Source of the DNA: a virus | Direction: 5' to 3' (one strand) | Virus record (IMG/VR): IMGVR_UViG_3300035698_002586 | Coordinates: 1 to 34,096 of that record | Length of the DNA stretch: 34,096 nucleotides | Part shown: positions 1,282-34,096 of the stretch, piece by piece | Position numbering within the stretch: position 1 is the stretch's first letter | Layout of the letters: each line of letters begins with the position of its first letter | Notes under the pieces: model-generated | The model's input: the letters and a program-made list of their open reading frames with translations, nothing else | What the model was told of the DNA's origin: nothing | Databases searched by the model: none | Position numbers and translations under genes: made by a program

Positions 1282-1291
1282 AGCGGTGCCC

Positions 1292-2662: not shown

Positions 2663-2671
2663 CAGGCCCTC

Positions 2672-4522: not shown

Positions 4523-4523
4523 G

Positions 4524-7033: not shown

Positions 7034-9195
7034 CCACCTGGCCTCGACTTCCTCTTTTTTCCACCACCGGGGCTGGATGAACTAGTCCACTTGTCGAGAT
7101 GCTTGAGCCACTTGCCCATGGTGCCAACGACCTTTTCGATCGACCCGTTGAAGTTCGACAGAACCCCCACCGACCTGATCCCAACCTGCTCGAGTTGGAC
7201 CATGATCCCCGACATCTTGCCGCCCATCGCGATCCGCTGCTGCGCAAGGTTGGCCGCAGCGACGGTCCCTGGCGCGCCCTTCCGGTTTAGTCCTCGAGCG
7301 GCCCCCATCAGATCGCCTTGCTCGCGACCGCCCGCCCCGGAGATCCCGTATTCCTCTGACAACTCGATGAGTCTCGCCTTGGCATTGGGACCGCTTGCCG
7401 CGTTGAAAAGCTTTTCTCCCATAGCTGGAGAGATGTTCATTCCATGCTCCGCTGCCCAACTCACCATGTGCATCTTGCGGATCTCGTTTGTTCCGTAGGG
7501 TGTCTTTCCACCTTTCACCCCACCGATACCTTTTGCGGCCATCGTGAACAGGTTGGCCATGCCCTCGTTGGTCATGCCGGCGTACATCTTGTTTTTTGTT
7601 TCGGCGTAGCTGACTCTCGCCCCCCGTGGGTCATTCGGATCGAATCCCATGGCCCTCATTTCCATCAAATCGGCTGGACCCTGGACGCCGCGAGCGCCAA
7701 CCTGTCTCGATTTGCGATTGAGCCCAGCGACCATCTGCCCACGTTGCAACTTCCCGATCCCCATCGCCTGAAACATCCCGCTCTGCCGTGTCAGTTCGGT
7801 CATGTTGATCTTGACGCCTTGCTTCTGAGCTTCTTGACCAAGCGAGACGAGCTGTTGCAGGTAGTCGGTAACCTCCGACCCTTCCATCCCCTGCGCGGCG
7901 GCCGCTTTCAGGACGCCAGCGAGCCCAGAACCCATCCCCGTTCCGCCGCCCCCCGCATGGCCGAGCTTTGCAAACTGGCCAGACGTGCCCATCGAGACGC
8001 CGTACATCATCTTGGCGGCCATGGCCTCGTTGAACTGCCCCTGCTCGAACCGGCCGCCGGCGGCGCCGAAGTGCTCGCCTTTCATCGCCTCTTGCTGCAT
8101 CGGGTCGTAGCCCAGTCTAATCCCGTAGCGGGAGCTTCCGAGACCTCCTACCCTTGTCGTGTGTGATCTGGCATTCTCTTTGGCGGTTTCTAAGTCTTCC
8201 CCGGATATTTTTCGGTCCTCTCGCCACGCTTGTCCTACTGCTATCCGAGCCGCCGTGATCTGCGATCTCAGTTGCTTGTCCGATACGTGACCCGTATGAC
8301 GCTTCGCGGCTGTGGCAAGCCCCTCCTTTGTCATGACCCGTTGGAATGACTGTTGGAATGACGCCCTTCTCTGTCCTGGTGACATGGCCGCGACTTCGCC
8401 CGCGCGGGTTTCTCTTCGGACTCCTTCATCCTCCAGGGCGGAAAGCTTTTTCTTAGCTTCTACCGCCCGCTCTCCCTTTCCTTCTCCTGCTTCTCGGGCA
8501 TAGGAAGCGGCGATATCCAACCATCTTCTAGAACCAGCGGACGCGCTATGCGTTCGAGTATCTCCGATGTTTTTCGTGGCGAAGTAGAGGTTTGCTTGCC
8601 TGGCTTTTTGGTGCCCAACGTAGGCTCCGTACATCCCTTGGCCAGCTTGCAAGGCGCCGGCGGCCGCAGGCCCGGCGAGGGGGATCGCCTGCATCATCGA
8701 CGACAGGCCGCCCATGCCGGGCATTGTGAAGGGAGCGGCTGCGGCCCCCGCGACACGCCGAGCCGCGCCGCCCACCACATTCCCCGCGGCGCGGCGCCAC
8801 ATGCCCTCGCCAGCGGGCATGTACTGCGCGAGCCCGGACCCCTGCATCGCGCCAGCGACGAACGATCTACGCTTGCGAGCGGCCGCGTCAGACCGCTCAT
8901 TCGCCTTGTTGAGCTTGTCGACGCCTTCGGTGGCCTTGTTGGCCTGCTCGGCGACCGACTTTAGCTGCCCCGCGAGCTTGTTCCAGGCATTCTGGCTTTT
9001 GGCCACGTCGCGCATGGCCTTGACCATGGCGCCCTGCTGGCTCGTGAGCCCCTTCAGATCTTTCGTGAGCCCGCGCGTGGCTGCGGTGAATGTCCCGACG
9101 ACCGAAGGATTAAACGCCTCACGCATCGCCTTGGCGACGTTCTTGAGGTCCTTTGCGTCTGCGCTGACTTTGACTTTCGCTTCGGTCTCGGCCAT
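7030..9195 (-). CDS. Tail tape measure protein
   Basis: 721 residues. It sets tail length and is ejected with the DNA. The N-terminal 110 residues are a predicted coiled coil rich in Lys/Ala/Glu (VKVSADAKDLKNVAKAMREA, LAGQLKSVAEQANKATEGVD). A glycine/alanine hydrophobic region follows (about 120-200), typical of membrane-active tape measure segments. Long helical and Gly/Met-rich stretches come next, and the end is basic (GGGKKRKSRPGG). At about 1.5 angstrom per residue, a known rule for this family, the tail would be roughly 100 nm. The middle (about 8150-8550) looks less GC-rich than its surroundings. It starts after TAGGAGCGCGCCC ATG, where the stop of the upstream chaperone gene forms part of the ribosome-binding site. 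Confidence 0.85.
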   Translation of the reverse strand: MAETEAKVKVSADAKDLKNVAKAMREAFNPSVVGTFTAATRGLTKDLKGLTSQQGAMVKAMRDVAKSQNAWNKLAGQLKSVAEQANKATEGVDKLNKANERSDAAARKRRSFVAGAMQGSGLAQYMPAGEGMWRRAAGNVVGGAARRVAGAAAAPFTMPGMGGLSSMMQAIPLAGPAAAGALQAGQGMYGAYVGHQKARQANLYFATKNIGDTRTHSASAGSRRWLDIAASYAREAGEGKGERAVEAKKKLSALEDEGVRRETRAGEVAAMSPGQRRASFQQSFQRVMTKEGLATAAKRHTGHVSDKQLRSQITAARIAVGQAWREDRKISGEDLETAKENARSHTTRVGGLGSSRYGIRLGYDPMQQEAMKGEHFGAAGGRFEQGQFNEAMAAKMMYGVSMGTSGQFAKLGHAGGGGTGMGSGLAGVLKAAAAQGMEGSEVTDYLQQLVSLGQEAQKQGVKINMTELTRQSGMFQAMGIGKLQRGQMVAGLNRKSRQVGARGVQGPADLMEMRAMGFDPNDPRGARVSYAETKNKMYAGMTNEGMANLFTMAAKGIGGVKGGKTPYGTNEIRKMHMVSWAAEHGMNISPAMGEKLFNAASGPNAKARLIELSEEYGISGAGGREQGDLMGAARGLNRKGAPGTVAAANLAQQRIAMGGKMSGIMVQLEQVGIRSVGVLSNFNGSIEKVVGTMGKWLKHLDKWTSSSSPGGGKKRKSRPGG

Positions 9196-9205
9196 GGGCG
9201 CGCTC

Positions 9206-9571
9206 CTACTCGTCGAGGTTCGGCGTTTCGCCTCGAGCTATCTGCTCCTCCCATCGGTCAACCTTCGCGTCGCCGGTCTTCCGCGGGACATACCAATTCT
9301 CGAGGGCCTCGTCGGCGTCCATCTCCCACAAGGGGGGCTGGTCGGAGAACAGTTGCTCTAGTTCACCGATCCTCTCCTCGAGCTCGAAATCACCGCCATC
9401 CGCGCGCCGCCTGGCCTTCAGCGCATTGAGCTCACCGGCTCTCTCTCGGTAGAAGTCTCGCAGCAAGCCGCCGAGAGACATCTGCTCGAACGGCGGCATA
9501 GGCGCGGCCCTGGCGCTCTGACTAGCCCACCTCCTCAGTTGCCCCTTGATCGTCTCCGTCTCCGCTAGCAC
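9206..9571 (-). CDS. Probable second tail assembly chaperone reading frame
   Basis: 121 residues, reading LAETETIKGQLRRWASQ to GETPNLDE, highly charged and probably helical. It lies between tube/chaperone and tape measure, the classical position of the gpG/GT or Mu gp41/42 chaperone pair. The frame begins inside the end of the upstream gene and overlaps it by 50 bases in a different register. The only start near the frame's beginning is GTG at 9571, with no clear ribosome-binding site before it. An ATG further in (MPPFEQMSLGG) lies too far from the strong GAGGAGGTG sequence near 9530. It may therefore be made mostly by ribosomal frameshift from the upstream gene. No similarity to a named family is evident; the role is inferred from position and overlap. 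Confidence 0.6.
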   Translation of the reverse strand: MLAETETIKGQLRRWASQSARAAPMPPFEQMSLGGLLRDFYRERAGELNALKARRRADGGDFELEERIGELEQLFSDQPPLWEMDADEALENWYVPRKTGDAKVDRWEEQIARGETPNLDE

Positions 9572-10010
9572 CTGTTTCTTCAGGCGCGAAACGTCCCGAA
9601 AACGTAGCCTCGTGCAAGGCCACCCCCTCGTAGATCAGATCGAGCAGTCGCGTGTAGCGGAGCGTGCCCAGTTCGTTTGCCCACTTCGGCCGCTTGACCA
9701 GGGAGAAGGTGCAGTGGGCGAGCTTCTCGGTGTGGCTTGCCATGTAGTCGGACAGCGACTCGATCGGCACGCCGCCCGACAGCCGGCTTTGCAGAGACCC
9801 CACGCGCGCAGTGGTCGTGAAGTCCAAGATCCGGTTGGTGAACGATCCCTTCCAGACGTGCCCTTTCGGATCGGTCCAAGAGATGTCGAAGGCGAAATCC
9901 TCCTCGAGTCGCGGATCGGAGTCGACCGCCGGTTTCTTATCGCGACCCTCGATCTCGGATTTCAGTTCCTCGGGCGATCTGATCTCGCCCATGTCTGCCA
10001 TGATACCCAT
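9522..10010 (-). CDS. Probable tail assembly chaperone (first frame)
   Basis: 162 residues starting MGIMADMGEIRSPEELKSE. The start has a good ribosome-binding site, GGAGAGCGGGAA ATG. It is a soluble, charged protein with a central beta-containing segment (DISWTDPKGHVWKGSFTNRI) and an acidic, glycine-rich end (ETGASGDGDDQGATEEVG). Such unstructured ends are common where tail chaperones join a second product by frameshift. It lies right after the tail tube gene and before the tape measure, as tail chaperones do in lambda, P2 and Mu. Such proteins bind the tape measure and are absent from the finished virion. The call rests on position and architecture. Confidence 0.6.
   Translation of the reverse strand: MGIMADMGEIRSPEELKSEIEGRDKKPAVDSDPRLEEDFAFDISWTDPKGHVWKGSFTNRILDFTTTARVGSLQSRLSGGVPIESLSDYMASHTEKLAHCTFSLVKRPKWANELGTLRYTRLLDLIYEGVALHEATFSGRFAPEETGASGDGDDQGATEEVG
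9542..9571 (-). other. Candidate +1/-2 frameshift region between the tail chaperone frames
   Basis: The second frame is displaced +1 (equivalently -2) relative to the first. Within the 50-base overlap the first frame reads GAT CAA GGG GCA ACT. A GGG codon followed by G at 9545-9542 would allow re-pairing after a +1 slip. A duplicated GGAGAC lies just upstream. Phage Mu is known to use a -2 shift at the equivalent junction. I see no classical -1 heptamer in the right register. The geometry is visible; the event itself is inference. Confidence 0.35.
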
Positions 10011-10037
10011 TTCCCGCTCTCCTTTTCCGAACGAGGT

Positions 10038-10481
10038 CTACACCTCGCTTTCGTCTTTCGCTCTGACGGCAACGAACGTTAGATGCTCGCCGACGACGCC
10101 TCGCGCGTTGATCTGGAAGTTCTTGCTGGCGACCTTGACCTGCTCGACCGTGGCGATCGGCACCTTGGTCTTATTGTCCATCACCACGGCCGTCATCTCG
10201 CCCTGGAGCAAGATATTCTTCAGGTGTTGCTCGGGCGACGTTCCCTGCGCGGGAAAGTAGCCGAGGCTCTTGACCGTCTCGCCCACGATGCGGACGAAAT
10301 CGGCCTCGAAGGACACGTCATAGTCGGTCGGAACGTGCTCCTCGGTTTGGATGTTGTCGAGGAGCTTGAGCGCCTCGTAGGTGATCGTCTCTCCGATCGA
10401 CACACTGGTCGCGTAGCCCACCTTGACGCCCTTGAGCATCAGCATGGCCCGCGCGCCCGTTAGGACTCTGCCCTTTTCCAT
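10038..10481 (-). CDS. Tail tube protein
   Basis: 147 residues. It forms the inner tube of the contractile tail. It starts MEKGRVLTGARAMLMLKGVKVGYATSVSIGE, matching the XkdM-type tube layout (short helix, then strands reading 'a.l.ldG..vg.a..v...e.'). DVSFEADFVRI and VEQVKVASKNFQINARGVVGEHLTFVAVRA follow, with alternating beta strands to the end. Length is typical of tube proteins, about 140-170 residues. It lies directly downstream of the sheath, the normal order. The sheath stop overlaps the ribosome-binding sequence (TAGGAG, 9 bases before ATG). Confidence 0.85.
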   Translation of the reverse strand: MEKGRVLTGARAMLMLKGVKVGYATSVSIGETITYEALKLLDNIQTEEHVPTDYDVSFEADFVRIVGETVKSLGYFPAQGTSPEQHLKNILLQGEMTAVVMDNKTKVPIATVEQVKVASKNFQINARGVVGEHLTFVAVRAKDESEV

Positions 10482-10492
10482 GGTTCAAACTC

Positions 10493-12823
10493 CTACGCTG
10501 CCGCAGACTGCGGGATCGCGACCAAGTGAACGGTCGATTTGACGAAGTTGACGGGCAAGACCGGCGCGATCTCGACCGCCTGGGCAATGACATCGAGCGT
10601 CAGGCTGGTCTGAAGGGACCGGTAGGCGACCAACGCCACGCCGACCAGCAACCCAAGGATGCCGATGGCCTCGCCGTGGGCGGCCGTGACGGTGCCAGCA
10701 AAGCCCTTGCGGCCCACCACGGTCTCCATCTGCGAGCGGTAGTTGTAGACCGAGTAGGACACGGCCTCGACCACCGATTGCTCGGTGTAGGCGATGTTCG
10801 CCGAGGTCAGATGCGTGGTGATACCGCGCACGACTCGGCGACCAATACCGTCGACCACCTCGCCAAAGCACAGACCGGCGGCGAGCATCTCCTCGGCGTC
10901 GTCGGTGGGGTTCCAGGTGGAGTCCTGCCCGATCGACAAGGTGTTGAGGTACTTGTGCGTGGTCGCCGTTCCAACGCTCGAACCCGCCTGCATGCCGGCG
11001 AGCATGCACGCACCATACATCGGCGGCAGCACTTCGCGCTCTCCGCTGGTGTTGTAGCGCTCGACGTTCTGCGCCCACGCCGCGCAGTATTTGTTGTTGA
11101 TGTTGACGACCTGGCTCTTGATCTCGGTCTTGGTTGGCAAGTCGGTCAGACCCGTATTCCACAGGCCGAGCTTGGCATCGCGCTCCGATCGACCGACGCC
11201 ACCCATGAGTTTACAGTGCGCCTTGACCAGCGAATGGATGTCCGGATCGTGGGTCATGACGACGATCGTGTTGACGCGCACCTGGGTCAGCAGCGCGATG
11301 GCCGCCGTCCAGTTGGCGTTGCTCGATGTGGGCACGCCCTCGTTGCCAGGCGTAGCGTCGCCCTCGTGGCCGCCGACCAGATAGGTAGCCGCGGCGGTAT
11401 TGTCCGGCGCGCCGGTGCCGCCAGTCGATCGGGCGGCCGAGACGAGCGAGCTCTCCGCGTTGATCTTGGCGACGATCGCGTAGAGGTCTGCCACGAAGTC
11501 TACCGAGGCTGGATCTTTGATGCTGGTCGGTCCGGCATAGTCCATGTTCTCCATCGCCAGCGAGCTCTCGCCTGTGACGATCGTGAACGTGAAACCGGGC
11601 GTGCCGTTGAATTTGTCGGCGGCCTTCTGGATCGTGTCGATGCCCGAGAAGGGCGCGTTGACGGCCACGGCGCTCGCCGTGACAGTGCCGGCCGCGGCGA
11701 CTTCGGCCAGAGCCAGGTAGGTCAGGCTCGACCACTTGCCCAGCGACAGGACCGGCACGGTTCCGGTCAGCGTGACCGTTTCCATCTGAGTCGCGCCGGC
11801 GGCGTTCTTGCCGACGATCGTAAACTTCTCTACGCCCGCGGCGCTTCGCACATTCGACAACACCACGCCAGCGACGGCAACATCGCTCATGGTGTAGAGA
11901 CCACGGGACAGGATCAGCGGGGTCAACGTCGTGATCGCGGCGGCGCCGGGCGCCGTCTTCATCGTGACCGTGCCAGCCGGCGCCGATGCGATCACCACGC
12001 CGTGGATCGAGTTCCAGACCTTGGTACCCGTAACCGTCGCCACGCCGAGCAAGGTGAGCGTCTCCGACTGTGCCGCGTCGAGCGCGTCAGTGCCGTAGAT
12101 CGTGACCGTCATGGTGTCGCCAGCGTCGCTCGAGGCAAACTCGACCGCTGCGCCTGGCGTAACCTGGGCACCAGTGATGTCCGTGTCCAGTCCGGCTCTG
12201 GCCAGCGTAAAGCTCGCGTACATCGCCGAGGCGTCGATGGTGGCCGTGATCGTGGTGTAGCCACCGGCTGGCGTCGTGGCCGCGAACGTGACCGAAAACA
12301 TCACGTCACCGCCAACGTCGTCGAACACCTCTTCGGTGTCCTCGAACGTGATCGTGATCATTTTGCCGAGGGTGTCCGTGCTCGTGCCAATCTCCACGTT
12401 GATCTGAGTCGTGAAGTATCCCCACTCGATCGAGGTCAGGTCGAGGGCGTCACCGGTGCCATTGCTGAACGTTGCAGCGCTCTGAACGGCCGGGTTGGTC
12501 TTGACATAGACGATCTCCTGGGCTCCGGCCGCGATCTGCTCGTCGTCGGCCGGCCCGAACAAGATCGGTCCGGCTTCGCGGAGGGCGCCACTGCGGAAGT
12601 AGTCGAAGGGTTTTTGCGGCGTGGTGGCGACCTGGAGCTGCGACTTCACGTCGCTGCCGCTGATCTCGGTGTAGGGCTTCCCGCCGATCGACTCTCCCAG
12701 GCATGCGACGATGCCGCTGGCCGTCAATCCGATGGTCTCGAGCCCACTCGCATCGACTTCCGAGTAGGCACCGGGGACGCTGATCATGCGCCCGTTGAAG
12801 TAGATCGTCGTGATGGCGCTCAT
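10493..12823 (-). CDS. Tail sheath protein with a large duplicated beta-domain insertion
   Basis: 776 residues, longer than most sheaths (about 390-660). It polymerises around the tube and contracts. The N-terminus has the sheath pattern MSAITTIYFNGRMISVPGAYSEVD and an early beta-core (about 35-110, IVYVKTNPA). The C-terminal sheath domain is clear from about 500 onward: NANWTAAIALLTQVRVNTIVV, HCKLMGGVGRSERDAKLG, GREVVRG-like GRRVVRGITTHLTSANIAYTEQSV, and the strand-forming end (VNFVKSTVHLVAIP). Between them, residues about 210-292 and 300-388 are two related beta segments (see separate repeat entry). The start follows GGGAGGTTTGATCC ATG, where TGA is the stop of the upstream gene. Confidence 0.9.
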   Translation of the reverse strand: MSAITTIYFNGRMISVPGAYSEVDASGLETIGLTASGIVACLGESIGGKPYTEISGSDVKSQLQVATTPQKPFDYFRSGALREAGPILFGPADDEQIAAGAQEIVYVKTNPAVQSAATFSNGTGDALDLTSIEWGYFTTQINVEIGTSTDTLGKMITITFEDTEEVFDDVGGDVMFSVTFAATTPAGGYTTITATIDASAMYASFTLARAGLDTDITGAQVTPGAAVEFASSDAGDTMTVTIYGTDALDAAQSETLTLLGVATVTGTKVWNSIHGVVIASAPAGTVTMKTAPGAAAITTLTPLILSRGLYTMSDVAVAGVVLSNVRSAAGVEKFTIVGKNAAGATQMETVTLTGTVPVLSLGKWSSLTYLALAEVAAAGTVTASAVAVNAPFSGIDTIQKAADKFNGTPGFTFTIVTGESSLAMENMDYAGPTSIKDPASVDFVADLYAIVAKINAESSLVSAARSTGGTGAPDNTAAATYLVGGHEGDATPGNEGVPTSSNANWTAAIALLTQVRVNTIVVMTHDPDIHSLVKAHCKLMGGVGRSERDAKLGLWNTGLTDLPTKTEIKSQVVNINNKYCAAWAQNVERYNTSGEREVLPPMYGACMLAGMQAGSSVGTATTHKYLNTLSIGQDSTWNPTDDAEEMLAAGLCFGEVVDGIGRRVVRGITTHLTSANIAYTEQSVVEAVSYSVYNYRSQMETVVGRKGFAGTVTAAHGEAIGILGLLVGVALVAYRSLQTSLTLDVIAQAVEIAPVLPVNFVKSTVHLVAIPQSAAA
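11660..12196 (-). repeat. Tandem related beta-domains inside the sheath gene
   Basis: Two segments of about 85 residues align by eye. The first contains VTIYGTDALDAAQSETLTL, then GTKVWNSIHGVVIASAPAGTV. The second contains FTIVGKNAAGATQMETVTL, then LGKWSSLTYLALAEVAAAGTV. Shared positions include TI-G, ETLTL/ETVTL, a Trp after G-K, and AxAGTVT. This looks like an old duplication of a surface-exposed domain, diverged at protein level. Confidence 0.65.
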
Positions 12824-22245: not shown

Positions 22246-23706
22246 CTAGTGGGCCAGCGAGTTGAGCTCGGCGTTGTTCAGACCGACCGAACCGGGTGCG
22301 CGACCCACGTTCTTGAAGATCACCGCGCGGCCGGGGCTGTAGACCACCGGGGAGCCGTAGAGGAGTTGCATCCAGCGGACGGCCGTCGAAACGGTCGACA
22401 ACGGGATCTTGAGGAACGGACAGAGCTGCTTGAAGGCGAAGAACTGGAGGTTCTGCTGAAGCAAGGTGGCCTTGCTCGTGCCCGGCAGATCTTGGTTGAG
22501 GTCCGTCAGCACCGTGGTGGCGGCGCTGCGGGCTTGGGTCACGGTGTAGCGCTCCGTCCCCGTCGCGACATCCACGGCGGTGCGGTAGAGCTCGAACGCT
22601 GTGCCCGCGATCGAGCCATCGGCCACGGTCATCGAGACCTTCTGGCCAGCGGCGACGGTCAGGGCACCGGTCATGGCGACGGCCGCGCTGCGACCGTAGC
22701 GGTTGATGGCCGCCACCTTGTAGTAGTAGTCACCGGCGTCGGCCGCCGTGAACAGCGAGGTCTCTCCACCACCAACGGCGCCAGCGCTCGGTGCCGCATT
22801 CTCGGTGGGCGTGTCCGGCCGCTTGCCGCTCGGGCCAGCCGCGACGGACGGCGCAGCCGCGCCGAACTGGATGAAGGTGTCGGGGTTGAACTTGATCGGC
22901 CCGAACTGGCTGAAAAAGCCCTGGATGTTCATCCCAACCATGCCGTTGTTGAAACCGCTGGTCGGGATGTTGAAGCGCTCGGCCGGGTAGAACTGCTTGG
23001 CCAAGTCGCTGAACGCGCCATCGGCGCAGTACAGGTCGGTGGCCTTGCCGTAGTTCGGCTCGGTCTTGACGATCAGAGCGCCGTCGTTGAGGAAGTCCTC
23101 GGTCAGCGGCTTGCCGCGGAGATCGAGCACGTTGAGGTTGGGGTTGGGCGCGTTGTCGGTGATCAGCTTGATGATCCCGTCGAACTGGATCGGGATCAGC
23201 GAACTATCTCCGAAGAACAGCGCGCGTTCGAGCTGCCGTAGCAACCAGGCCGTCCCGTTGACGGTCTCCTGCGCGATCACATTGCCGTGCGACGGCTTGA
23301 TCAGGCTCATCACATGGGTGACCGAGCGGGTCGTGCCCATGTACTTGATCACGGTGTAGGCGCGCTCGAAAGTCGAGTCATCGGACTCGGGCAGATCTCC
23401 CTCGTCGATGAACGCGGCGACTCCGCTGCCGTACTCTTTCAGACGGTTGAACTCCTCGACGGTGTTGAACGCCGGGAGCTTCGTCAGGGCGGACCACAAG
23501 CGGACATCGTCCATCCTGTAGGTGACCGTCTTGAGCGTGTTCTCCAGGCTTTCGGTTCTCAGAGGGAAACCCTCTCCGGCCGAAGCGCCTGGCGAATTGA
23601 TGTCCTGGCCAGCGGCGAGGGCTTTCCTCAGATCGCTGACTTCCTCGGCGCTGGCATCTCCCTGGCCCAGGCCAGAGTAGTCCCGCCACGAGACGTTTCC
23701 TTGCAT
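22246..23706 (-). CDS. Major capsid protein with an fn3/Ig-like insertion
   Basis: 486 residues from ATG at 23706, chosen for GAGGAGAACACT before it; an in-frame start 12 codons upstream has less support. It follows scaffold and protease genes, the usual order. Residues 1-43 are acidic and probably removed at maturation. The motif GEGFPLRTESLE lies at 44-55 and recurs in the protease. The core follows with FDGIIKLIT and DDSTFERAYTVIKYMGTTR. Residues about 285-410 are an inserted domain containing DYYYKVAAINRYGRSAAV, typical of fibronectin-III/Ig strands. The C-terminal end resumes the capsid core (RWMQLLYGSPVVYSPGRAVIF). The HK97-like fold is inferred. Confidence 0.85.
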   Translation of the reverse strand: MQGNVSWRDYSGLGQGDASAEEVSDLRKALAAGQDINSPGASAGEGFPLRTESLENTLKTVTYRMDDVRLWSALTKLPAFNTVEEFNRLKEYGSGVAAFIDEGDLPESDDSTFERAYTVIKYMGTTRSVTHVMSLIKPSHGNVIAQETVNGTAWLLRQLERALFFGDSSLIPIQFDGIIKLITDNAPNPNLNVLDLRGKPLTEDFLNDGALIVKTEPNYGKATDLYCADGAFSDLAKQFYPAERFNIPTSGFNNGMVGMNIQGFFSQFGPIKFNPDTFIQFGAAAPSVAAGPSGKRPDTPTENAAPSAGAVGGGETSLFTAADAGDYYYKVAAINRYGRSAAVAMTGALTVAAGQKVSMTVADGSIAGTAFELYRTAVDVATGTERYTVTQARSAATTVLTDLNQDLPGTSKATLLQQNLQFFAFKQLCPFLKIPLSTVSTAVRWMQLLYGSPVVYSPGRAVIFKNVGRAPGSVGLNNAELNSLAH

Positions 23707-23745
23707 AGTGTTCTCCTCGCAGAGCCTAGCTCGGCGCTGCAAAAT

Positions 23746-23765: not shown

Positions 23766-24713
23766 TCAGAGCTCGAGCTGGACGCCCATCTCGGTCGCCA
23801 CGTCGCCGAGCATTCGGCGGGTGATCTTGCGACTGCTCTCGTACAAGGCGACTGCGCGGTCGATCGGCTCGCCGCAGGGCGCCAGGAAATTGTTGTCGCG
23901 GGACTTGACCATCAACCGTCCGAGGCCGTCGTTGATCTGTTGCTCGGACAGACCACCGGCTGCCGGCTCGCCGCCCGCGAAAGACTTGCGGAGCGGCTGG
24001 GCGCTGCTCGTGCGAGCCTTGCGCAAGTTCGGCTTCTTTTCGACGATGCCCAGGCGCTCGGCGAGGGCCGTATTCTGCACGCTGAGCGACTTGATCATGT
24101 CGCCCTGCTCGGTGATCACGCCGCCGATGCCGCGGAAGCTCTTGGCCAACGCGCGGTTGAACATTTGCTGGTCGCCCATGCTCTTTGCGAGCGATTCACG
24201 CATTGAGTCGAGCGACTCGGCAACGAGCTGCGAATGTCGCTCGATGAACGGGGCAACCTCGTAGTCCTGCGCGAGTTGGTCGTCGGCCAAGAAAACGTTG
24301 GTGAAGCTCTTGGCGATCTGGTCGTCGTCGGCCTCCGGCGCTTCGGGCGCGCCCAGCAATTCGAAAAGCTCGGCTCGCTCGCTCTTGCTGATCGTGCCCA
24401 AGGCGACCTTCTCGCCCAACTCGGCGCGACGATCTGGCTCACCGCCGATGCCCTCGGACACGGCCTCGAGCGTGTCCATCGCTTTCATGAGATCGTCGCG
24501 AGAGAGGTTGAGAGACTTGTCGGTGTCGTCCGTGTCGTCCGTGTCGTCGTCCGTGTCGTCCGTGTCGTCGTCGTCGGACTTGGTCATGGGCTTGCCGGGG
24601 GCCTTGGGCGTGAGGCCCCCCTCGGCGCCAATCTGGCTCTCGGGAAGCGCGCCCTTGCCGAACTTCTCTTCGGCCGCTGCGCTGGCGGCTTCGTCCGCAC
24701 TCAAAGTCTTCAT
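23766..24713 (-). CDS. Scaffold-like head assembly protein
   Basis: 315 residues, highly charged and largely helical. The N-terminal 70 residues are disordered with an Asp/Thr repeat (residues 47-65). Helices follow (RDDLMKAMDTLEAVSEG, HSQLVAESLDSMRESLAKSM, MIKSLSVQNTALAERLGIVE). The C-terminal 45 residues are compact (PIDRAVALYESSRKITRRML). Its location between protease and capsid genes and its acidic, coiled-coil nature fit an internal scaffold that is degraded or ejected after assembly. No sequence match to a named scaffold family is claimed. It overlaps the protease stop by 4 bases (ATGA), with AAGGAG ahead of the start. Confidence 0.65.
   Translation of the reverse strand: MKTLSADEAASAAAEEKFGKGALPESQIGAEGGLTPKAPGKPMTKSDDDDTDDTDDDTDDTDDTDKSLNLSRDDLMKAMDTLEAVSEGIGGEPDRRAELGEKVALGTISKSERAELFELLGAPEAPEADDDQIAKSFTNVFLADDQLAQDYEVAPFIERHSQLVAESLDSMRESLAKSMGDQQMFNRALAKSFRGIGGVITEQGDMIKSLSVQNTALAERLGIVEKKPNLRKARTSSAQPLRKSFAGGEPAAGGLSEQQINDGLGRLMVKSRDNNFLAPCGEPIDRAVALYESSRKITRRMLGDVATEMGVQLEL
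24519..24575 (-). repeat. Asp-Asp-Thr microsatellite in the scaffold gene
   Basis: A 9-base unit, GTGTCGTCC on the plus strand, is repeated with GTC expansions and encodes Asp-Asp-Thr runs. Such tracts can change length by slippage without changing frame. Confidence 0.75.
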
Positions 24714-25498
24714 CTCGAACTCCTTGTTCTTTTTGCGAACATCAAGATCGCGTTTGCGGCCCGCTCACTCAGGCCAGGGTGGCGCCTTTGGATCAAGGCC
24801 AGACCCTCGGCCTTGGATAGCTTCTTTCGCTTTTTCTTTTTCTTTTTCGCCCGTCCAGCGGTGTCGGTGGGGGAGCGCTCCAGGGACTCGGTTCGCAAGG
24901 CAAACCCGTCGCCTGGTGTTGCCACTGCGGGCACCGAGATGGCCGAGCCAGCCTCGAGCGACTTGGCGCTGCTCTCGAGCGCCATCATGGACTTCGCCAC
25001 GATCTCGAGACCAGTGACGGTGTTTACCGGGCAGTTGGTGATAGCGACGTTCGAGACGTGCGCTGCGGCGATGGTTTTCCCATCGGCGCCGGTGCGCTCT
25101 TGGACCTTGCCCTCGATCGAGAAACCGAGGCGCCGGTTGGTCTTCTGGAGCGACTGGGCGAGGCGCCAGATCTCGTCGGACTTGTCGTATCCGGGGATCA
25201 GGTAGCCTTCCATGTAGGTCGCGGCCTTGCCGTTGTGGCGCCGATTCTCGACCTTGCTCGGGTAGCCGACTACGCCGGTCGTCTCGCGAGAATGGTTGTC
25301 GTTGAGCCAGCCGTTGCGCAGGAAGTCGGAGAAGTCCAGGCCGCGCTGTAGAACTACCTCGCCCTGCTTGTCCTTGTGCTCGGTCGAGATGATCCCGCCG
25401 ATACGACGCTCTTTGCCAGCCTCGGCGCCAGCCTTCTCCCAAACTTCGATGGGGAAGTCGATCTGGAAGGGGATTTCGCGAAGAGAGGCGGTCGACAC
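24710..25498 (-). CDS. Prohead (capsid maturation) protease
   Basis: 262 residues from GTG at 25498 with GGAGGAATCC before it. The catalytic part covers about 1-170. GGIISTEHKDKQGEVVLQRG opens the fold. H69 lies in GWLNDNHS, S127 in RRLGFSIEG and H147 in AAAHVSN, consistent with the Ser-His-His triad of herpesvirus assemblin/phage prohead proteases; CPVNTVTGLEI follows. The linker contains GDGFALRTESLE (196-207), repeated in the capsid N-terminus, so self-cleavage there is likely. The tail is very basic (AKKKKKKRKKLSK, 217-229), possibly to bind scaffold or DNA during assembly. It cleaves scaffold, itself and the capsid delta-domain in related phages. Confidence 0.85.
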   Translation of the reverse strand: MSTASLREIPFQIDFPIEVWEKAGAEAGKERRIGGIISTEHKDKQGEVVLQRGLDFSDFLRNGWLNDNHSRETTGVVGYPSKVENRRHNGKAATYMEGYLIPGYDKSDEIWRLAQSLQKTNRRLGFSIEGKVQERTGADGKTIAAAHVSNVAITNCPVNTVTGLEIVAKSMMALESSAKSLEAGSAISVPAVATPGDGFALRTESLERSPTDTAGRAKKKKKKRKKLSKAEGLALIQRRHPGLSERAANAILMFAKRTRSSR

Positions 25499-25812: not shown

Positions 25813-28365
25813 TTAGCGGTGCTTTCGGCGCTCGGCGCGCTGGTCTTGGAAGTCTGAAATCCAGGCCATGTTTCGCTCGGCATCCCGGTCTTTCCGACCG
25901 TGCTGCGTCAGATCGAGGATCGGCCGCGGCGCCCCATGGTACCGCGTATCCGCGTTGCGACCGATGGCATCCTTCTTTTCCTTGTTCTCCTTGTCACGCT
26001 TCTTTCGGCCCTTGCGCTTCCGTTTCTTCGCGCTGGCCGGATGGTCGTCTTGGAGCTGCGGCGCGGTCACGTTCTCGCCGGGCGTGCGAGCTGGGCCACC
26101 CCAGTTACCCATCGTTCCCACCGGTGGACGGTTGGGCGCGCGTCCGGAGATCGCCAGGCCGTCGATGCCGTACTCGCCAGCGGCCTTGGAGATGATCAGC
26201 CTTGGTCCGTAGGGGGATATACGGGCGGCGTATCGTCGAGGATCAGTGGTTGGCTTGTCGGCCGATCCCTCTCGTACTTCCGGCCCGTGGTGGAAGATTC
26301 GTGCTCCGGACGGGGCGAGGAATCGGTTGTATTGCTCGAGGTAGGATTCATTCAAGATCTCGATCCAGCGGTCGAAAGAAAACGCTGGCGATGTAGGATC
26401 GCCGGGAGTGCCGCCGGCGGCCCTGATTTCGGAGTCGATCGTATCGCAAGCAGCGTAGTGGGCGCGACTCCCGACGTGGTTGAGCGCTCGAGCAACCGTT
26501 CGGATGTTTGGGATATCCTCGAACGGCACATCCCATGTGGGTCCGGGGCGCTTGAGTGACCAGTGGCCACCGTTGGGCAACACGGCGCGAATTTCGGCAA
26601 TGTCGCAGTTGATCGCCAATGCGAGGTCGTCTGGACTGAACGGCGATCCGCTCGGGTGGTTGTGAGTAAAGACCGCCCCGCCGTCCCTCTTGATCTTGCT
26701 GGCAAGTTCGGCAGTCACGGGCACCGTGTGCTTTTTCCCCTTCACGCGATGGATCAGCCGTCCAGCCATGAACACCGCAGCGTGCTCGACCTTGAGACCG
26801 CGGATCGCATCCTCGGCGGCCTCAAGTGCCATGCCAGGCTTCAACGCAGTGCCGCGGTAGCCGTCGCTGAGCGTCTGCGGCTCCCAGTGGATGGTGTGCT
26901 GTGGATCGGCCCATTTTCCGCCCCGCGGGCCAATGAAGGGGCCGCCCCTCGAGACCTTCAGCCTTGGCTGCGGCTTGGCCTTGGCCGGCGCGGAGAAGTC
27001 GAATCCGATCTGCTCGGCCTTCTCGATCTTGGCCCCGTCCCGATACTCTCCGGCCTTCACGCGATCGACAAACTCAGCAGAGATGATGGCGGTCATGCCG
27101 CCAAACCCCTTCTCGTGGTCGAAGTGGTCGAGGTAGGCTCGCTTGGCTTCGGCCCTCGAGGGGAACCCGAGCATCACCTTGTCTTCGTCGTAGCTCTTGA
27201 ACTCGGGCGCCGCGAGCTGATGCACGACGTAGACGAACTTGGCCGCGTCGTCGGGGCCGACGTAGCAATCAACGTGCTCGCCGTCTGCGGCCTCCGTTCT
27301 CCGGATGTAGCCGTAGGGCCACTTCATCGTAGTGGTTCCCTCGCGCTTGGCCGCCACGTCGTACCAGTGCCGCGTGCTGCCCTTCCGATTCTCGATCGAG
27401 AGCTCTAGGCCGTTCCAGTTTCTGCGGCCGTGCAGCTTGCGAGACTTCGCCACGATCTGCTCGGCCTCGGGCTCCTCGAGCTCAACCTGAACGGGCGTTC
27501 GCGCAATGGCGTCGTCGGCCTCATCTTCGATCGGAACCAGATCCCAGCCCTCATCGAAGGTCATGCCGGCGGGCACGCGAACCAGTCTACATCGGCACCA
27601 AGGATGGACTGCGCCCAATACAGGTCGCCAGTCGGCGCGCTTGAGACCCACGTTTGAAACGCCGTTGCCCTCCCACCATGACGCCGGCATCACGATAGGT
27701 AGTCCATCAGGGCCGAGGTAGAGGCGCTTGCAGTCGTCGCACGCGCTTGGCTCGGGGACCTTCGCCATCATGACTTCGCGGCCGTGGCGCTCCATCGTTG
27801 CGACGAGTTTCCCGTGTTCGTGCGCGAACTGGCTCTCGGTCGAGGCGATCCGTCCCCAGTCGCGCGCCCAGTCCTCCGACATCTGCCGCAACCGGGTGGT
27901 CAGCCGACCGACGCCAGCACGGCTCGCGATGGCGCGGCCGGCCGCGGTCTCGATCCCCTCACGAAACTCCGCGGCCAGCTCGTCGCTGAGCTTGATCACT
28001 CGTTCGCCCACCTCGCCGGAGTACCGCGTACCGAGACCGACGCAGAACTGCCCCGCTCGCTCGACGGCCTGGTCATAGGCGAGCAACTCGCGCTCGGTCA
28101 GCTCGACGGGGTTATGCGCCAGGTGCGTCTTGAGCTGCGGATAGGTCATCTGCGCGGCGACGGGCAGCTCGGCCATGATCCGGCCAAACTCGAACGAATC
28201 CATGACCAGGTTTTCCAGCTCCTCGAGCTGGATGTAGCCCTCGTCGACCAGCCGGGCGAGCTCCTCCGGCGCGACTTCCATGCCTGCCGTACCGATGGCC
28301 ACCGCGGCCGAGGCGTCTCGGACGATCTTGCGAAGCTCATCGATCTGCTTGGCGGTCAGGAACAT
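25813..28365 (-). CDS. Mu-F-like minor head protein fused to InPase-like and JAB/RadC-like domains
   Basis: 850 residues. Residues about 1-135 are helical. Residues about 140-270 match the phage Mu gpF/SPP1 gp7 minor head domain: a helical part (IASTESQFAHEHGKL), C209-x2-C212 (ACDDCKRLY) and HPWCRCRL (254-261). Residues about 318-440 show the phage InPase-like domain: GLELSIENRKGSTR, MKWPYGYIRRTEAADGEHVD, CYVGPDD, DEDKVMLGFPSRAEAKRAYL. A linker with GGPFIGPRGGKWADPQHTIHW follows. Residues about 509-600 are JAB/MPN-like: THNHPSGSPFSPDD (567-580) carries His568, His570, Ser577 and Asp580, with Glu527 a possible acidic partner. The end is Lys/Arg-rich (780-798). Polyvalent fusions of MuF with enzymes are known; the substrate here is unknown. 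Confidence 0.8.
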   Translation of the reverse strand: MFLTAKQIDELRKIVRDASAAVAIGTAGMEVAPEELARLVDEGYIQLEELENLVMDSFEFGRIMAELPVAAQMTYPQLKTHLAHNPVELTERELLAYDQAVERAGQFCVGLGTRYSGEVGERVIKLSDELAAEFREGIETAAGRAIASRAGVGRLTTRLRQMSEDWARDWGRIASTESQFAHEHGKLVATMERHGREVMMAKVPEPSACDDCKRLYLGPDGLPIVMPASWWEGNGVSNVGLKRADWRPVLGAVHPWCRCRLVRVPAGMTFDEGWDLVPIEDEADDAIARTPVQVELEEPEAEQIVAKSRKLHGRRNWNGLELSIENRKGSTRHWYDVAAKREGTTTMKWPYGYIRRTEAADGEHVDCYVGPDDAAKFVYVVHQLAAPEFKSYDEDKVMLGFPSRAEAKRAYLDHFDHEKGFGGMTAIISAEFVDRVKAGEYRDGAKIEKAEQIGFDFSAPAKAKPQPRLKVSRGGPFIGPRGGKWADPQHTIHWEPQTLSDGYRGTALKPGMALEAAEDAIRGLKVEHAAVFMAGRLIHRVKGKKHTVPVTAELASKIKRDGGAVFTHNHPSGSPFSPDDLALAINCDIAEIRAVLPNGGHWSLKRPGPTWDVPFEDIPNIRTVARALNHVGSRAHYAACDTIDSEIRAAGGTPGDPTSPAFSFDRWIEILNESYLEQYNRFLAPSGARIFHHGPEVREGSADKPTTDPRRYAARISPYGPRLIISKAAGEYGIDGLAISGRAPNRPPVGTMGNWGGPARTPGENVTAPQLQDDHPASAKKRKRKGRKKRDKENKEKKDAIGRNADTRYHGAPRPILDLTQHGRKDRDAERNMAWISDFQDQRAERRKHR

Positions 28366-28599
28366 TCAGCCACCTTCGATCACGCGCTCGAGCTTCGCGA
28401 CCATTCGACGGCGAACGGCCTCGACCACCACCCTTGACCGGTCTATGGAGCCCTGGAGCGCTTCGAGGTCCATCTTGCGCGGCTCCCGATCTGATGCCTT
28501 GGCGGACGCCTTGCGCAAGCGTACACGGCTTGCGATCTCCGCAAGCTGCGCGCGACTGAGCGGCTCCTCGCCGGGCCGTAGCTCGATCGTTACTCGCAT
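28366..28599 (-). CDS. Short helical protein of unknown function
   Basis: 77 residues, MRVTIELRPGEEPLSRAQLA to AKLERVIEGG, rich in Arg, Lys and Glu, almost certainly helical. Its stop (TGA) is immediately followed by the ATG of the Mu-F-like gene. Its start overlaps the stop of the upstream gene (TGATG). The position between portal and minor head genes suggests a small head-assembly factor, but I recognise no family. Confidence 0.55.
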   Translation of the reverse strand: MRVTIELRPGEEPLSRAQLAEIASRVRLRKASAKASDREPRKMDLEALQGSIDRSRVVVEAVRRRMVAKLERVIEGG

Positions 28600-28994
28600 C
28601 AGACGCCGGCGACGAGATAGGTGATGTTCGCCTTGGTTGTCAGGGATACGTTGCTCACCGACAGCGCCGTGAACTCGCCTTCCCAGAACAACTTGGCGTT
28701 GTAGCCGGTCGTCGGCGACAGCTTGAACTCCTCGGTTCCGCCGTTGATCTTGATCAGAAGCTCTTGGTCGGTCTCGATGTAGAGAAGCGCAGCCGTCGTA
28801 ACGCCCCCCAGCTCGAGTGCCTCATCGACCGTCGACTCGTCGATCACGCGGGTGTCCGCCTTGCCAACCTCGAGGTCTTCTCGGATCGTCTGGATGATCG
28901 AGTCGCCAGCGCGCTGGAATCCGATCTTCTTTTCGGCGTCGTCGAGCGAAGCCAGGATACTAATGGAGTGCTTGACGCGAAACTTGCTCGCCAT
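28599..28994 (-). CDS. Beta-rich virion protein of unknown function
   Basis: 131 residues with strong alternating strands: ASKFRVKHSISILASLDDAE, TTAALLYIETDQELLIKING, KLFWEGEFTALSVSNVSLTT, and the final NITYLVAGV. The ribosome-binding site GAGGACTGATC precedes the ATG. The pattern fits a small sandwich-type virion protein, possibly a capsid or portal-associated decoration. It sits next to the portal, which is unusual for a decoration protein. Confidence 0.5.
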   Translation of the reverse strand: MASKFRVKHSISILASLDDAEKKIGFQRAGDSIIQTIREDLEVGKADTRVIDESTVDEALELGGVTTAALLYIETDQELLIKINGGTEEFKLSPTTGYNAKLFWEGEFTALSVSNVSLTTKANITYLVAGV

Positions 28995-28996
28995 GA

Positions 28997-30730
28997 TCAG
29001 TCCTCGATTTCGATGCTGTAGGTGATCGTGCCGTTGCGCCTGGTCTCGGTCACGAGGCCCTTGCGGAGCGACTTCTCTGCGGCGTCGTCTTTGTCTCGCG
29101 CCGTCTCGGGCAACTGGTCGAACTGGCTCATCAAGTCATCCCAGCCGCCTTTTTCCGGTGCGGCTTCCTGCTCTGGAGCTTGCTCGGGTTCCTGGTCGGG
29201 TGGTGGCATCTCTCCACCCTGGTCGCCGTACTGGTCGAATCCACCGCCCTCGGCTTGCTGCGCTTCCATATCCTTCGCCTGCGAGAATTGCAGCCACGTC
29301 GGGTCGAGGATCACCTCGCCCTTGCCATCTCTCATCGGAGCCATATCGTCTTCGGCGCGGATCTCGTCGACCGTCTTCAGATACGAAACCTGTTTTTTCT
29401 GGAGGTCGGCGATCTGGTCGCTTGAGCGCGGGTCCATCCCCGTGAACACGATCTCGAAATCCTCGTCGAGACGCCAGATCAAGTAGTGGTTCATCCAGTC
29501 GGATAGGCGCCGCAAGATCGGGCGAAGGCCCTTGTCCTTGCTCGACTTGATCCGCGACTCGGCGGGCGCCTGGAACATCTGCTGCGACTGCCCCTGGTTG
29601 CCGTAATCGATGCCGATCTCGCTCGGGTCGAATAGGCATGTCCCGCAGGTCAGCTTGATCAGGAAGTCATTCCACGCGCTGTACTCCATGTCCCGATTCG
29701 TGGAGTGCAGGTTGATGTATTGCAGTTCCTCGGCGTTGGTGATCGGCGTGCGCCAGGCGTTCGCTACGCCGGTCACGAGCTGGTACCAGTAGCGCCGAAA
29801 GGCGTCGAGCTGCTTGACAGGCATGCTGCCGCGGAAGTTCAAGATGCCCTTGGTGGTACTGCCCTGGCTGAAAAATCTCTTGTTGTACTCGAAGCTCCAC
29901 AGAAGCGCGGTGACTACGTTGAGCAGCATTTCTAGCTCGGAGTACCCATAGCCGTTCAAGCGGATCCCGGTGCGCGGGTTTCGGATGCCAAAACAGAGCT
30001 CGTGCGCGGCAAACTCGGCGATCACAACCTCGTCGTAGATCTGGACAAATCTGGCGCGCTCGGGATCGTCGTCGAGGTCGGCGTGCAAAGGAACGTCGGC
30101 GATCCGGATCGTGGCGGCGTCGATGGCGTAGAAGTCGGAGGGCTCGCCCTTGGCGTTGTCAACCACCTCGAACGTCGCTTGGTCGTAGATCAGGCTGTCG
30201 CGGATCAACTTGGTGAAAAACACTTCCAAGCTGTCTTTGCCGAACATGCGCGTCGAGCCGGTGTAGAGCATCCATTGCTCTAGCTCGTTGGCGCGTTTCT
30301 TCGACGCCTTTGTCGCGTTGGCTTCCTGTTCGCGCAGTTTCACCTGGAACCCAGGCTCGCGATCCTGCTGCTGCGGGATGGCGAAGTTGGCGACTTGCTG
30401 GATCCTGGTCTGTACGATCGCGTTGAAGACCGGGACGCGCCGCGCCATCTCGTCGAGAGTCTGATAGGTGATACCGCTCGGCCGGTCCTTGTAGCCGAGC
30501 TGGTCGATCACGCTGAACGGGTCGGTGAGTAGCGCCTTGGCGGCCTCGTCAGCCGGCTCGGGCAAACCAGGCGGGAGGTTTTGCTGCCCGTCTGCATTCA
30601 CGGGAAGACCAGCCGCGCCAGTCTCCCGTTTCGCCTTTTCAAAGCTCTGGGCGGCCATCTCGCCGACCATCGAAAGAGCCCCGCCAAGCGCGTCAGACGC
30701 ACGGCCGATCAATCTGTCACGCCACGCCAT
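28997..30730 (-). CDS. Portal protein
   Basis: 577 residues. It forms the ring for DNA entry at a capsid vertex. The N-terminal anchor (MAWRDRLIGRASDALGG) and strand-rich wing (ITYQTLDEMARRVPVFNAIV) are typical. Then come the clip/stem segments: LIYDQATFEVVDNAKGEPSD, YAIDAATIRIADVP, ELCFGIRNPRTGIRLNGYGY, SELEMLLNVVTALLWSFEYN, KGILNFRGSMPVKQLDAFRR. NLHSTNRDMEYSAWNDFLI and CGTCLFDPSEIGI follow. These match the portal stem/crown pattern of long portal proteins. Residues about 500-545 form a Pro/Gln/Glu-rich, disordered stretch, before an unusual short C-terminal beta end (RRNGTITYSIEIED). It starts 15 bases after the HD-domain gene, with GAGG in GAGGCCCACC ATG. Confidence 0.85.
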   Translation of the reverse strand: MAWRDRLIGRASDALGGALSMVGEMAAQSFEKAKRETGAAGLPVNADGQQNLPPGLPEPADEAAKALLTDPFSVIDQLGYKDRPSGITYQTLDEMARRVPVFNAIVQTRIQQVANFAIPQQQDREPGFQVKLREQEANATKASKKRANELEQWMLYTGSTRMFGKDSLEVFFTKLIRDSLIYDQATFEVVDNAKGEPSDFYAIDAATIRIADVPLHADLDDDPERARFVQIYDEVVIAEFAAHELCFGIRNPRTGIRLNGYGYSELEMLLNVVTALLWSFEYNKRFFSQGSTTKGILNFRGSMPVKQLDAFRRYWYQLVTGVANAWRTPITNAEELQYINLHSTNRDMEYSAWNDFLIKLTCGTCLFDPSEIGIDYGNQGQSQQMFQAPAESRIKSSKDKGLRPILRRLSDWMNHYLIWRLDEDFEIVFTGMDPRSSDQIADLQKKQVSYLKTVDEIRAEDDMAPMRDGKGEVILDPTWLQFSQAKDMEAQQAEGGGFDQYGDQGGEMPPPDQEPEQAPEQEAAPEKGGWDDLMSQFDQLPETARDKDDAAEKSLRKGLVTETRRNGTITYSIEIED

Positions 30731-30745: not shown

Positions 30746-33700
30746 CTAGTAGTCGCGTTTGGTGAAAGCGGAGCGGACGATCGGATCGCTGTCGTCGATC
30801 ACTTCGGTTTCTCCGGGGTCCGACTTCACAACGTTGGGGCTTTGCGGAGGCTTCCAGACATCGCGCCACCACTCGGCCAGTCCGCCGTTGCCGCCGAAAC
30901 CGGCCGGGTCGTCTTCGATGATCTCGGCCTCAATCTCGGCGCGGCAATGGTTCGTCCGGTCGTCGCCCTGGTTCGGCTGGATCATCTCGCCCTGGTAGAT
31001 GGTCCCCTTAGAGATCGGGGGCCGCATGTTGGTCGGCTGCACGCCGATGTGCAGACCGTCACCGGCCTCGAGCGCCTTTGAGATTTCCTCGTCGGCACCG
31101 ATCTCGGCGTAGGCGTCTCCGATGCCGATGCGAGCCCGGATCGGGCGTTGCGATTTCTTTGCTTCCATGTCTGCCAGCTTTCGGTAGTAGTCCTTGTCCT
31201 CGGTCAGATGGTCTTGGGCGATCTCGGTCGCCACCTTCGGGTCCTTGGTGTGCTCGGCCTCGACCTTGCGGCCGGTTTCGAGGTCTTTGGGATCGAAGTC
31301 AGACGGCTTTTTCCCGTCGCCCTCACCGCCGACGAGCGCTTCTTTCTTGCGCAACTCGTCACCGTCGTCGCATCGTTCAGACTTTGAGATTGTCGCCTTC
31401 TGGTCTGACTTCGACAGCCAGTCCTCGAGCGGCGCTTGCGCGAGCAGGTAGGCCAGCGACTTGGCCACGTCGGTGCCAAAGAAGGCGCCGAGAGCCTTGT
31501 CGCGCTCGGTGCCGTCCGCCAGGCCCTTGATCTTGTCGAAGTCGCCTTTGACGGCGGCCATCTCGTCGGCGTGGCGGCGCTCTGCGTGTTGCTGGTTCGT
31601 CGGGGGCGTCCAGATGAACTCGATCCCCGCGCCCTCTTTGCCGATGTGGGCTCCGGGGGGTGGGGGCTTCTTGTCGAGCGCGGCCTTGGGCGTCACGCCG
31701 TAGTCCTCTAGCAGCTTGGTGAACTGCTTGTCTGCGTCGTCGTCGCCGAACACTTTCCCGATCGTGTTACGAACGTCGGACTGCTCGATCGTCACCTTCA
31801 TGTCGCTGCCGTCGAAGTTGAACTGAGGGTTCCGGCCAGCCAAGCGCCCGACCAAGAACTTGGGCGTCATCTCGCCCACCTCGCGCGCTGCTTTGAGCAG
31901 GGCGTGCTTGGTCTCGGCGGGCAGGTCTGTGCGCTTCTCGATCTGGGCCATGAGGGTTTGTTTTACGCCGCCGATCATGCTCTTGACCTTGGCTTTTTCC
32001 TCGGCGCTCCGGCGCAGCTTCTTTTCCTTCTCGCCGGTCTTCTTGTTCACCTCCTCGTATTCCTCGGTCGGCGGGACCAGGTCGAGGGCCATGCGGATCT
32101 TGACCATCGACTCGACGGCGATCTTGGAGTCGAACAACACCTCGGGCATCTTGTCGGCGAAAAGGTGCGTGTTGTCGGCGAGGCGAACGGCCGAACCAAA
32201 GAAATCACCCTTCCAGTCGACTTCCTGGCCAGAGTGATTTGCGACCGCGTTGATGTAGGTCTGGAACCCATCCTTGCCGAAAAGCTTTTCGTACTTGTCC
32301 CGCTGCTGGAACCCCATCACGGTCGACGCCTGCGGGTGGTAGTTGTCCTTGACCGCAAACCCACCCCTGGCGATGGCCGGGATCGTGTAGCCCATGTCGT
32401 GGTCGAGCCAGACTTGATAGGCCATGAAGTGGTCCATCGGCGTCACGTCGACCCCGCCCTTTTTCAGTTGCTCGAAAATCGCATCCGACTGCTTGGCGTT
32501 CACGCTGAGATGGCGAACGCCATGATCGCCTAGCGTCCGGCCGGCGGCCTCGATCTCTTGGTGAGCGAGCTTGCGGACGTTCTCTTCCATGAGCGCCGCG
32601 AGGGTCTTGCCCTTGACGCCAGCGGCCTCGGCGTGCGCGACCATGTCGTGCATCATTTTCTTCGCCGTGGCCACGTTGTTCGGGACGATCCAGCCATCCT
32701 TGCCGAGTTGGTCAAGGTGGGCGTCGATCGATCCGCCGAGGTCTTTCGCGTCGTAGCCCTTGGCTGCGCCGAACCGCGCTTCCATTTCTCCCGAGACAAC
32801 CTTGTAGTCTGCGGTCTTCACGGCGCGCTCTTTTTTCGAGAGCTTGTTGAAGTCGGGCGGCAGCTCGGCCGGATCGGTGATCACCTTCTCGTCGGGTTTC
32901 TCGAGCCCCGCGCTCGGCGCTTCTGGCTTGGCCTCTGCCTTGGGCTTGGCGCCTTTGAGCTCGTCCCGGAGCGCAAGCGCGTGAGCATTGGCGTCGGTCG
33001 GCGGTTTGTCCTTCGCTTGCTTTCCGGGCTGCGGCTTCTGATCTTTCGGGTGGCCAGCGTCGTCGGCGTGTGCGCCTCGAGTTACGCCGATGCCCGGGTA
33101 CCAGTAGATGTAGCCGGCGCCCTGCTTCTTGTGATACCCGCCCTTGGTCGAATGTGGGATCGGCGTAAAGCCGGCTGGCGGGCGCTGCGTGCTGCCTCCA
33201 CCGCTGGCGGCGGCGGGCTTGCTTTTGAGCTCCTTGCGAAGCGCAAGCGCGTGAGCGTTGCCAGTGGGGGCCGCTTTGGCGCCTTTGAGATCCTGGCGAA
33301 GCGCAAGCGCGTGAGCGTTTCCGGTGGGGGCCGCTTTGCAGAGGTCTCGAATGGCTTTGACCGATTTGTCGAGTTTCAAGTCATGCCCCGTTCTTGTGGC
33401 GACTACGTCCAGATACATAAGAGCTGCGGTGTTGGTCGGATTGACCTTCCGCGAAAGCCTTGTCAGTTTGGACTTAAAGGCACCCTGGCGACGTTTACCC
33501 ATGTTCCCGTAGCCGGCGTTGTGCTCCTCGTAGAGCGCCTTGGCCTGCGCTGTGATGGCGTCCTGCTCGGGATCGGATACCTTCTCCGGTGTTGGCGCGG
33601 GAGTCGGTGGCGCTGGCGCCGCTGCGCCCTCGTTGGCCCGGATCTCAGCTTCGGTCGGTCGGTCAGCCCTCTTCCCGTCGATCCAGTCTTTCTCTGGCTG

Positions 33701-34066: not shown

Positions 34067-34096
34067 GGGCGCCTCCGATTTCCCGAATCGTACCCC

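Follow-up and report, generated by a model that had tools for sequence, protein, structure and literature searches.

A conserved HD-type active site in a polyvalent-type head-cassette protein of an uncultured tailed phage

Among polyvalent modules, an InPase and a dyad of a DarB-like methylase and an SF2 helicase have been described as being delivered with the virion (Iyer et al. 2017, PMC5512222). In a survey of jumbo phages, HD-GYP and HD-alarmone phosphodiesterases were proposed to act as a counter-nucleotide defence, and the general idea of such a role for phage HD enzymes is already known (PMC7824862); our literature search for a virion HD counter-defence enzyme found nothing specific. 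The HD enzymes themselves can be told apart by their metal ligands: H...HD...H...H...D is the diagnostic dinuclear set of YqeK, MIOX and PhnZ, and H...HD...H...HH...D is the set of HD phosphodiesterases, HD-GYP proteins and Cas3 (PMC8177086). SidE-type PDE domains have been described as HD-like as well (PMC6941232).

The window analyzed here is the whole 34,096-nt stretch of the IMG/VR virus record IMGVR_UViG_3300035698_002586. It comes from an uncultured tailed phage whose tail region (sheath, baseplate) is that of a myophage, and it carries a minus-strand ORF, open across 1106 residues, that ends 15 bases before the portal gene (Table 1). The encoded protein possesses a conserved HD-type active site and combines several unrelated modules inside the portal-terminase head cassette, as polyvalent proteins do. 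The original prediction had recognised no other virion domain in it, yet a DUF5661 module and a conserved C-terminal stretch of ~130 residues are present. The position of DUF5661 varies among the proteins of the relatives. The C-terminal stretch is kept in those relatives that also possess the portal gene and is a candidate head-association part of the protein.

Between the modules lie short repeated elements. Three 58-nt direct repeats encoding 'NAHALALRxELK' linker units are found within positions 32951-33338. A 34-residue motif with the consensus '[KR]xPAGYxPVPxSxHGGYRKRHGAGYIYWYPGxGV', shared by the window, L001, L005, L007 and L008, marks module boundaries in HD proteins and in DarB-like proteins, and may serve as a signal for packaging or processing. 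A different motif between modules, GPYIGPRGGKWADPQHTI, is found in the window (residue ~473 of the MuF-like protein), L001, L002, L007 and L008; the proteins that bear it are MuF-like fusions, the HD protein of L001 and a PAPS-reductase-type protein of L008.

Table 1. Features of the head cassette and of the HD-carrying protein in the window (L001, L005 and L007, related phages).
Feature	Position	Strand	Remarks
Polyvalent-type multi-module protein with HD module, 1106 aa	30746..34066	(-)	same place in L001, L005, L007
Linker repeat 1, encodes 'NAHALALRxELK'	33281..33338	(-)	
Linker repeat 2	33221..33278	(-)	
34-residue inter-module motif RPPAGFTPIPHSTKGGYHKKQGAGYIYWYPGIGV	33083..33184	(-)	precedes HD module in 5/5 phage proteins
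Linker repeat 3	32951..33008	(-)	
HD core, residues 480-668	32063..32629	(-)	alignment, model, Foldseek, profile alignment
Invariant metal-ligand candidates H515, H519, H556-D557, H577, H611, D631	32174..32524	(-)	alignments
Accessory C-terminal part of HD module, residues 669-875	31442..32062	(-)	conserved in phages, weaker in CPR proteins
DUF5661 module, residues 930-970	31157..31279	(-)	Pfam PF18905, E 1.2e-7
Conserved C-terminal domain adjoining portal gene, residues 975-1106	30749..31144	(-)	comparison with relatives
Portal protein	28997..30730	(-)	
131-aa protein between portal and MuF-like genes	28599..28994	(-)	conserved in relatives
MuF-like head protein fused to InPase and further cargo	25813..28365	(-)	MuF assignment read from sequence
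InPase part of MuF-like protein, residues 312-435	about 27061-27432	(-)	
Head maturation protease	24710..25498	(-)	
Head scaffolding protein	23766..24713	(-)	
Major head protein, SPO1-like	22246..23742	(-)	

The predicted ligands H519, H556-D557, H577, H611 and D631 proved exact in numbering and coordinates, and they are invariant in 13/13 rows of an alignment of 5 phage sequences and 8 CPR homologues (the latter 21-26% identical to the window protein). H515 (DHGxxH), overlooked in the original prediction, is as invariant as these six residues and may be an additional ligand or catalytic residue; the codons extend from 32524-32522 (H515) to 32176-32174 (D631). As 28 of the 411 columns are invariant, the chance that a blind draw hits an invariant column for each of the six ligands is about 6e-8, a value that is optimistic because His and Asp are conserved above average. 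The CPR loci were fetched partly via the peptide pattern DHDMGYT, which biases their ascertainment at columns 555-561. Three further CPR sequences (L035, L062, L063) were retrieved by the profile HMM only; they vary at D555/M558/T561 and retain H515, H519, H556-D557, G559-Y560, H577, H611 and D631, and they are the cleanest evidence for a real motif. Furthermore, the HD core is 82, 76 and 72% identical to that of L001, L005 and L007, respectively, and the portal 74, 62 and 60%; since the core is conserved at least as well as the portal, it is under strong constraint.

A structure prediction, suggested at the outset as a check against the HD fold, came out in its favour. The AlphaFold2 model built from 13 sequences (pLDDT 77, pTM 0.76 over 411 residues; a model from two sequences with pLDDT 45.8 was set aside) is helical; the H...HD...D ligands follow each other in this order along a bundle of helices and are placed as in HD proteins: the HD pair ends one helix, H577 is in the next one, H611 lies just past a helix, and D631 is part of one. 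The high-probability Foldseek matches are HD-superfamily proteins, none of them significant by E-value (no match at E<=0.001, every E-value >0.05). They comprise SidE-type PDE domains (probability 0.98-0.99), exopolyphosphatases (PPX) and, in the viral library, phage HD hydrolases (0.89-0.98); a Pyrococcus HD protein follows at 0.51. The TM-scores against PDB entries are low because the query has 411 residues. When profiles of the module and of seven known HD domains (from Planctomycetota and CPR genomes) were aligned, the HD pair, H577, H611 and D631 came to lie in register; the score of 24.8 beats 100/100 column shuffles (maximum 22.3) and 59/60 block shuffles, and the reversed profile scores 9.95. 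None of the Pfam, NCBIfam, PHROG and PDB sequence models recognises the module, the Pfam HD models giving no match even at E<=1, and the matches of the protein in a PDB sequence search were discarded as being at chance level only. On the basis of ligand conservation, the helical model, the Foldseek matches and the profile alignment, the module is very likely a member of the HD superfamily and a divergent branch of it that is absent from Pfam.

The original prediction had placed the ligand order with both HD and HD-GYP enzymes. The former assignment stands and the latter does not, since the set is H...HD...H...H...D without the HH pair, i.e., the YqeK/MIOX/PhnZ type of dinuclear HD enzymes; position 610 holds N, T or D in 13/13 rows (NHSGQEVDW in the window). 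HD-GYP was rejected because both the HH pair (seventh ligand) and the GYP triad are missing, and a (p)ppGpp hydrolase of the SpoT/Mesh1 type because the window and 13/13 rows read HDMGYT and have no HDxxED. The signature of dNTPases (SAMHD1/EF1143 type) is HDxxH, in place of which HDMGYT is found as well. For a Cas3-type HD nuclease, the HH pair is missing, and a helicase fusion occurs only in L008, in the opposite order. As HH, GYP and HDxxED are absent, alarmone-hydrolase and HD-GYP readings are unsupported by sequence, and so are the host alarmone or cyclic signal first named as specific targets (the dNTPase signature being absent too). A nucleic acid beside a helicase, or another nucleotide, would fit equally well as the substrate.

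The module is rare. Besides the window and its near-identical fragment L002, it is present in three distinct IMG/VR phages and in L007; L007 and L010 (JALORE010000001.1) are one and the same phage. The L010 contig (98,765 bp) carries a direct terminal repeat of 99 bp and starts at a different point from the IMG/VR copy, and is therefore circular; this complete-looking phage genome was binned with a Planctomycetota MAG. Because the sole match in 392 Planctomycetota genomes is the phage contig itself, we claim no host assignment from this bin. No match was obtained by tblastn in isolated phages (HD modules of the window, L008 and L011) or in plasmids (HD module of the window). Distant homologues are encoded in the genomes of Peregrinibacteria/Peribacteria and other ultra-small CPR bacteria, in proteins of up to 3559 residues; as most of them are large chromosomal proteins, not virion proteins, the module is not inherently part of a phage effector. 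L035, L062 and L063 closely resemble the phage version around LGDHGxRH and ADNTxxFxxKxPE (one of them uses TGA as a sense codon and is readable with code 25), a resemblance that may hint that CPR lineages and phages have exchanged genes.

The position of the gene directly upstream of the portal, as originally predicted, holds in four phage lineages (the window, L001, L005 and L007). Identity to the counterparts in SPO1-like phages is 38% for the portal and 35% for the major head protein. In SPO1, the order is portal-protease-scaffold-head protein, and the portal gene is not directly preceded by a large one; in the clade with the HD protein, a gene for a MuF-like protein with cargo lies between portal and protease. 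In L001, L005 and L007, a gene for a DarB-like N6-methylase and SNF2 protein is located upstream of the HD-protein gene, with one or two small ORFs in between; the corresponding gene is not visible in the window because the record stops at 34096. As MuF-like cargo, the window and L002 have InPase and other parts, L007 has InPase and a Mom-like domain, and L005 has a C39 peptidase; the HD module is retained while this cargo changes. The Mom-family (DNA modification) match of the L007 MuF-like-InPase protein (8868-11855) is weak, slightly under the Pfam cut-off. In the MuF-like protein of the window, a JAB/RadC-like stretch (FTHNHPSGSPFSPDDLALA) was noticed by eye past the InPase (residues ~540-620), to which Pfam has no match. 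L008 differs in that a single protein of 2208 aa combines a strawberry-notch-like SF2 helicase with the HD module on its C-terminal side; a PAPS-reductase-type protein adjoins this fusion (2-4330 and 4330-10956), and the window portal has no match within the 81-kb L008 contig. PADLOC found no match to the HD protein, its matches being confined to the helicase/methylase parts of the relatives.

Most likely, the module is a dinuclear metallohydrolase of the HD type that is delivered by the virion and acts on a nucleotide or nucleic-acid phosphoester, where packaging and substrate are what we infer. Packaging is plausible from the gene context, and so is delivery, since the HD protein is portal-adjacent in four lineages and flanked by classic injected-effector modules. 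The virion would probably carry the protein next to the portal and eject it together with the DNA; in the host, the module would hydrolyse a phosphoester or pyrophosphate of the nucleotide type, more likely in a small nucleotide involved in signalling or stress than in a fixed polymer. Together with the co-delivered DarB-like methylase-helicase and InPase, it might thus let the phage pass early host responses. To this reading in full, i.e., a head protein of the polyvalent type whose dinuclear HD metallohydrolase module (~480-875) is intact and which would be packaged, ejected and active on a nucleotide-type substrate, we assign a probability of about 0.5; catalysis and injection are, like packaging and substrate, conditional parts of it.

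The fusion in L008 and the SNF2 gene just upstream in L001, L005 and L007 could also mean that the module is a nuclease or nucleic-acid phosphodiesterase working with an SF2/SNF2 helicase, Cas3-like, on host DNA or restriction intermediates. We consider this unlikely: Cas3 and other HD phosphodiesterases have the HH pair (PMC8177086) that is absent in the window family, Pfam finds no helicase domain in the CPR homologues examined, and polyvalent proteins routinely combine unrelated domains, so that a fusion is no proof of biochemical partnership. The head-cassette position, for its part, would suit a non-injected head-assembly or late cytoplasmic protein with an enzyme active in the producing cell, as a gene transcribed together with structural genes need not encode a packaged protein. 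This appears doubtful to much the same degree, because known injected-type modules flank the HD protein, the phages exchange cargo modules but keep the C-terminus next to the portal, and SPO1, without such a gene upstream of its portal, demonstrates that it is not needed for the assembly of an SPO1-type head. Finally, an HD-derived enzyme with other chemistry, either a di-iron oxygenase (the ligand set is common to YqeK and the HD oxygenases; PMC8177086) or a SidE-like phosphodiesterase on ADP-ribosylated protein (the top Foldseek PDB matches are SidE-type PDE domains; PMC6941232), is very improbable, the E-values of Foldseek being 0.24 or worse and MIOX/PhnZ being absent among the matches listed.

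Virion-delivered enzymes act ahead of phage gene expression, and no answer to nucleotide-based host immunity could come earlier than that of a packaged phosphohydrolase. The family is not represented in Pfam, no other cargo module of the cassette is as constant, and it has homologues in CPR bacteria; owing to these homologues, one biochemical screen of the ~400-residue domain would cover phage and CPR proteins alike. As a tentative and rather unlikely extension, it may be an undescribed HD family of CPR bacteria and a phage clade with SPO1-like heads, which in these phages would be the virion-delivered, constant enzymatic module of a variable polyvalent cassette and would destroy a host defence or stress nucleotide; it would then be a virion-borne HD counter-defence enzyme.

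Compared with the phage P1 DarB/DarA antirestriction system, the relatives have a DarB-like methylase-SNF2 protein in the head cassette as well, whereas the DarB gene itself falls beyond the end of the window; we know of no HD component in P1 Dar. An HD enzyme joined to an SF2 helicase is reminiscent of Cas3, but only in L008, where HD is C-terminal (N-terminal in Cas3), has no HH pair and gives no sequence match. The jumbo-phage HD enzymes are not described as part of virion head proteins (PMC7824862), and the window module, unlike them, has no GYP, HH or HDxxED. With YqeK, a dinuclear HD enzyme hydrolysing Ap4A, the module shares the six-ligand set H...HD...H...H...D (PMC8177086), but it has the additional invariant H515 and an accessory domain, no sequence match to YqeK is found, and YqeK is absent among the Foldseek matches listed. 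In contrast to the phage protein, the large Peregrinibacteria/Peribacteria proteins are chromosomal (988-3559 residues, with no virion genes noted in the flanks read), although their HD and accessory domains are homologous and the ligands identical. The polyvalent proteins differ in that the main text of their description names no HD domain and Pfam contains no such module; like them, however, the HD protein is large and multi-modular, belongs to a portal/MuF cassette, lies next to an InPase and a DarB-like methylase-SF2 dyad, and is predicted to be injected (PMC5512222).
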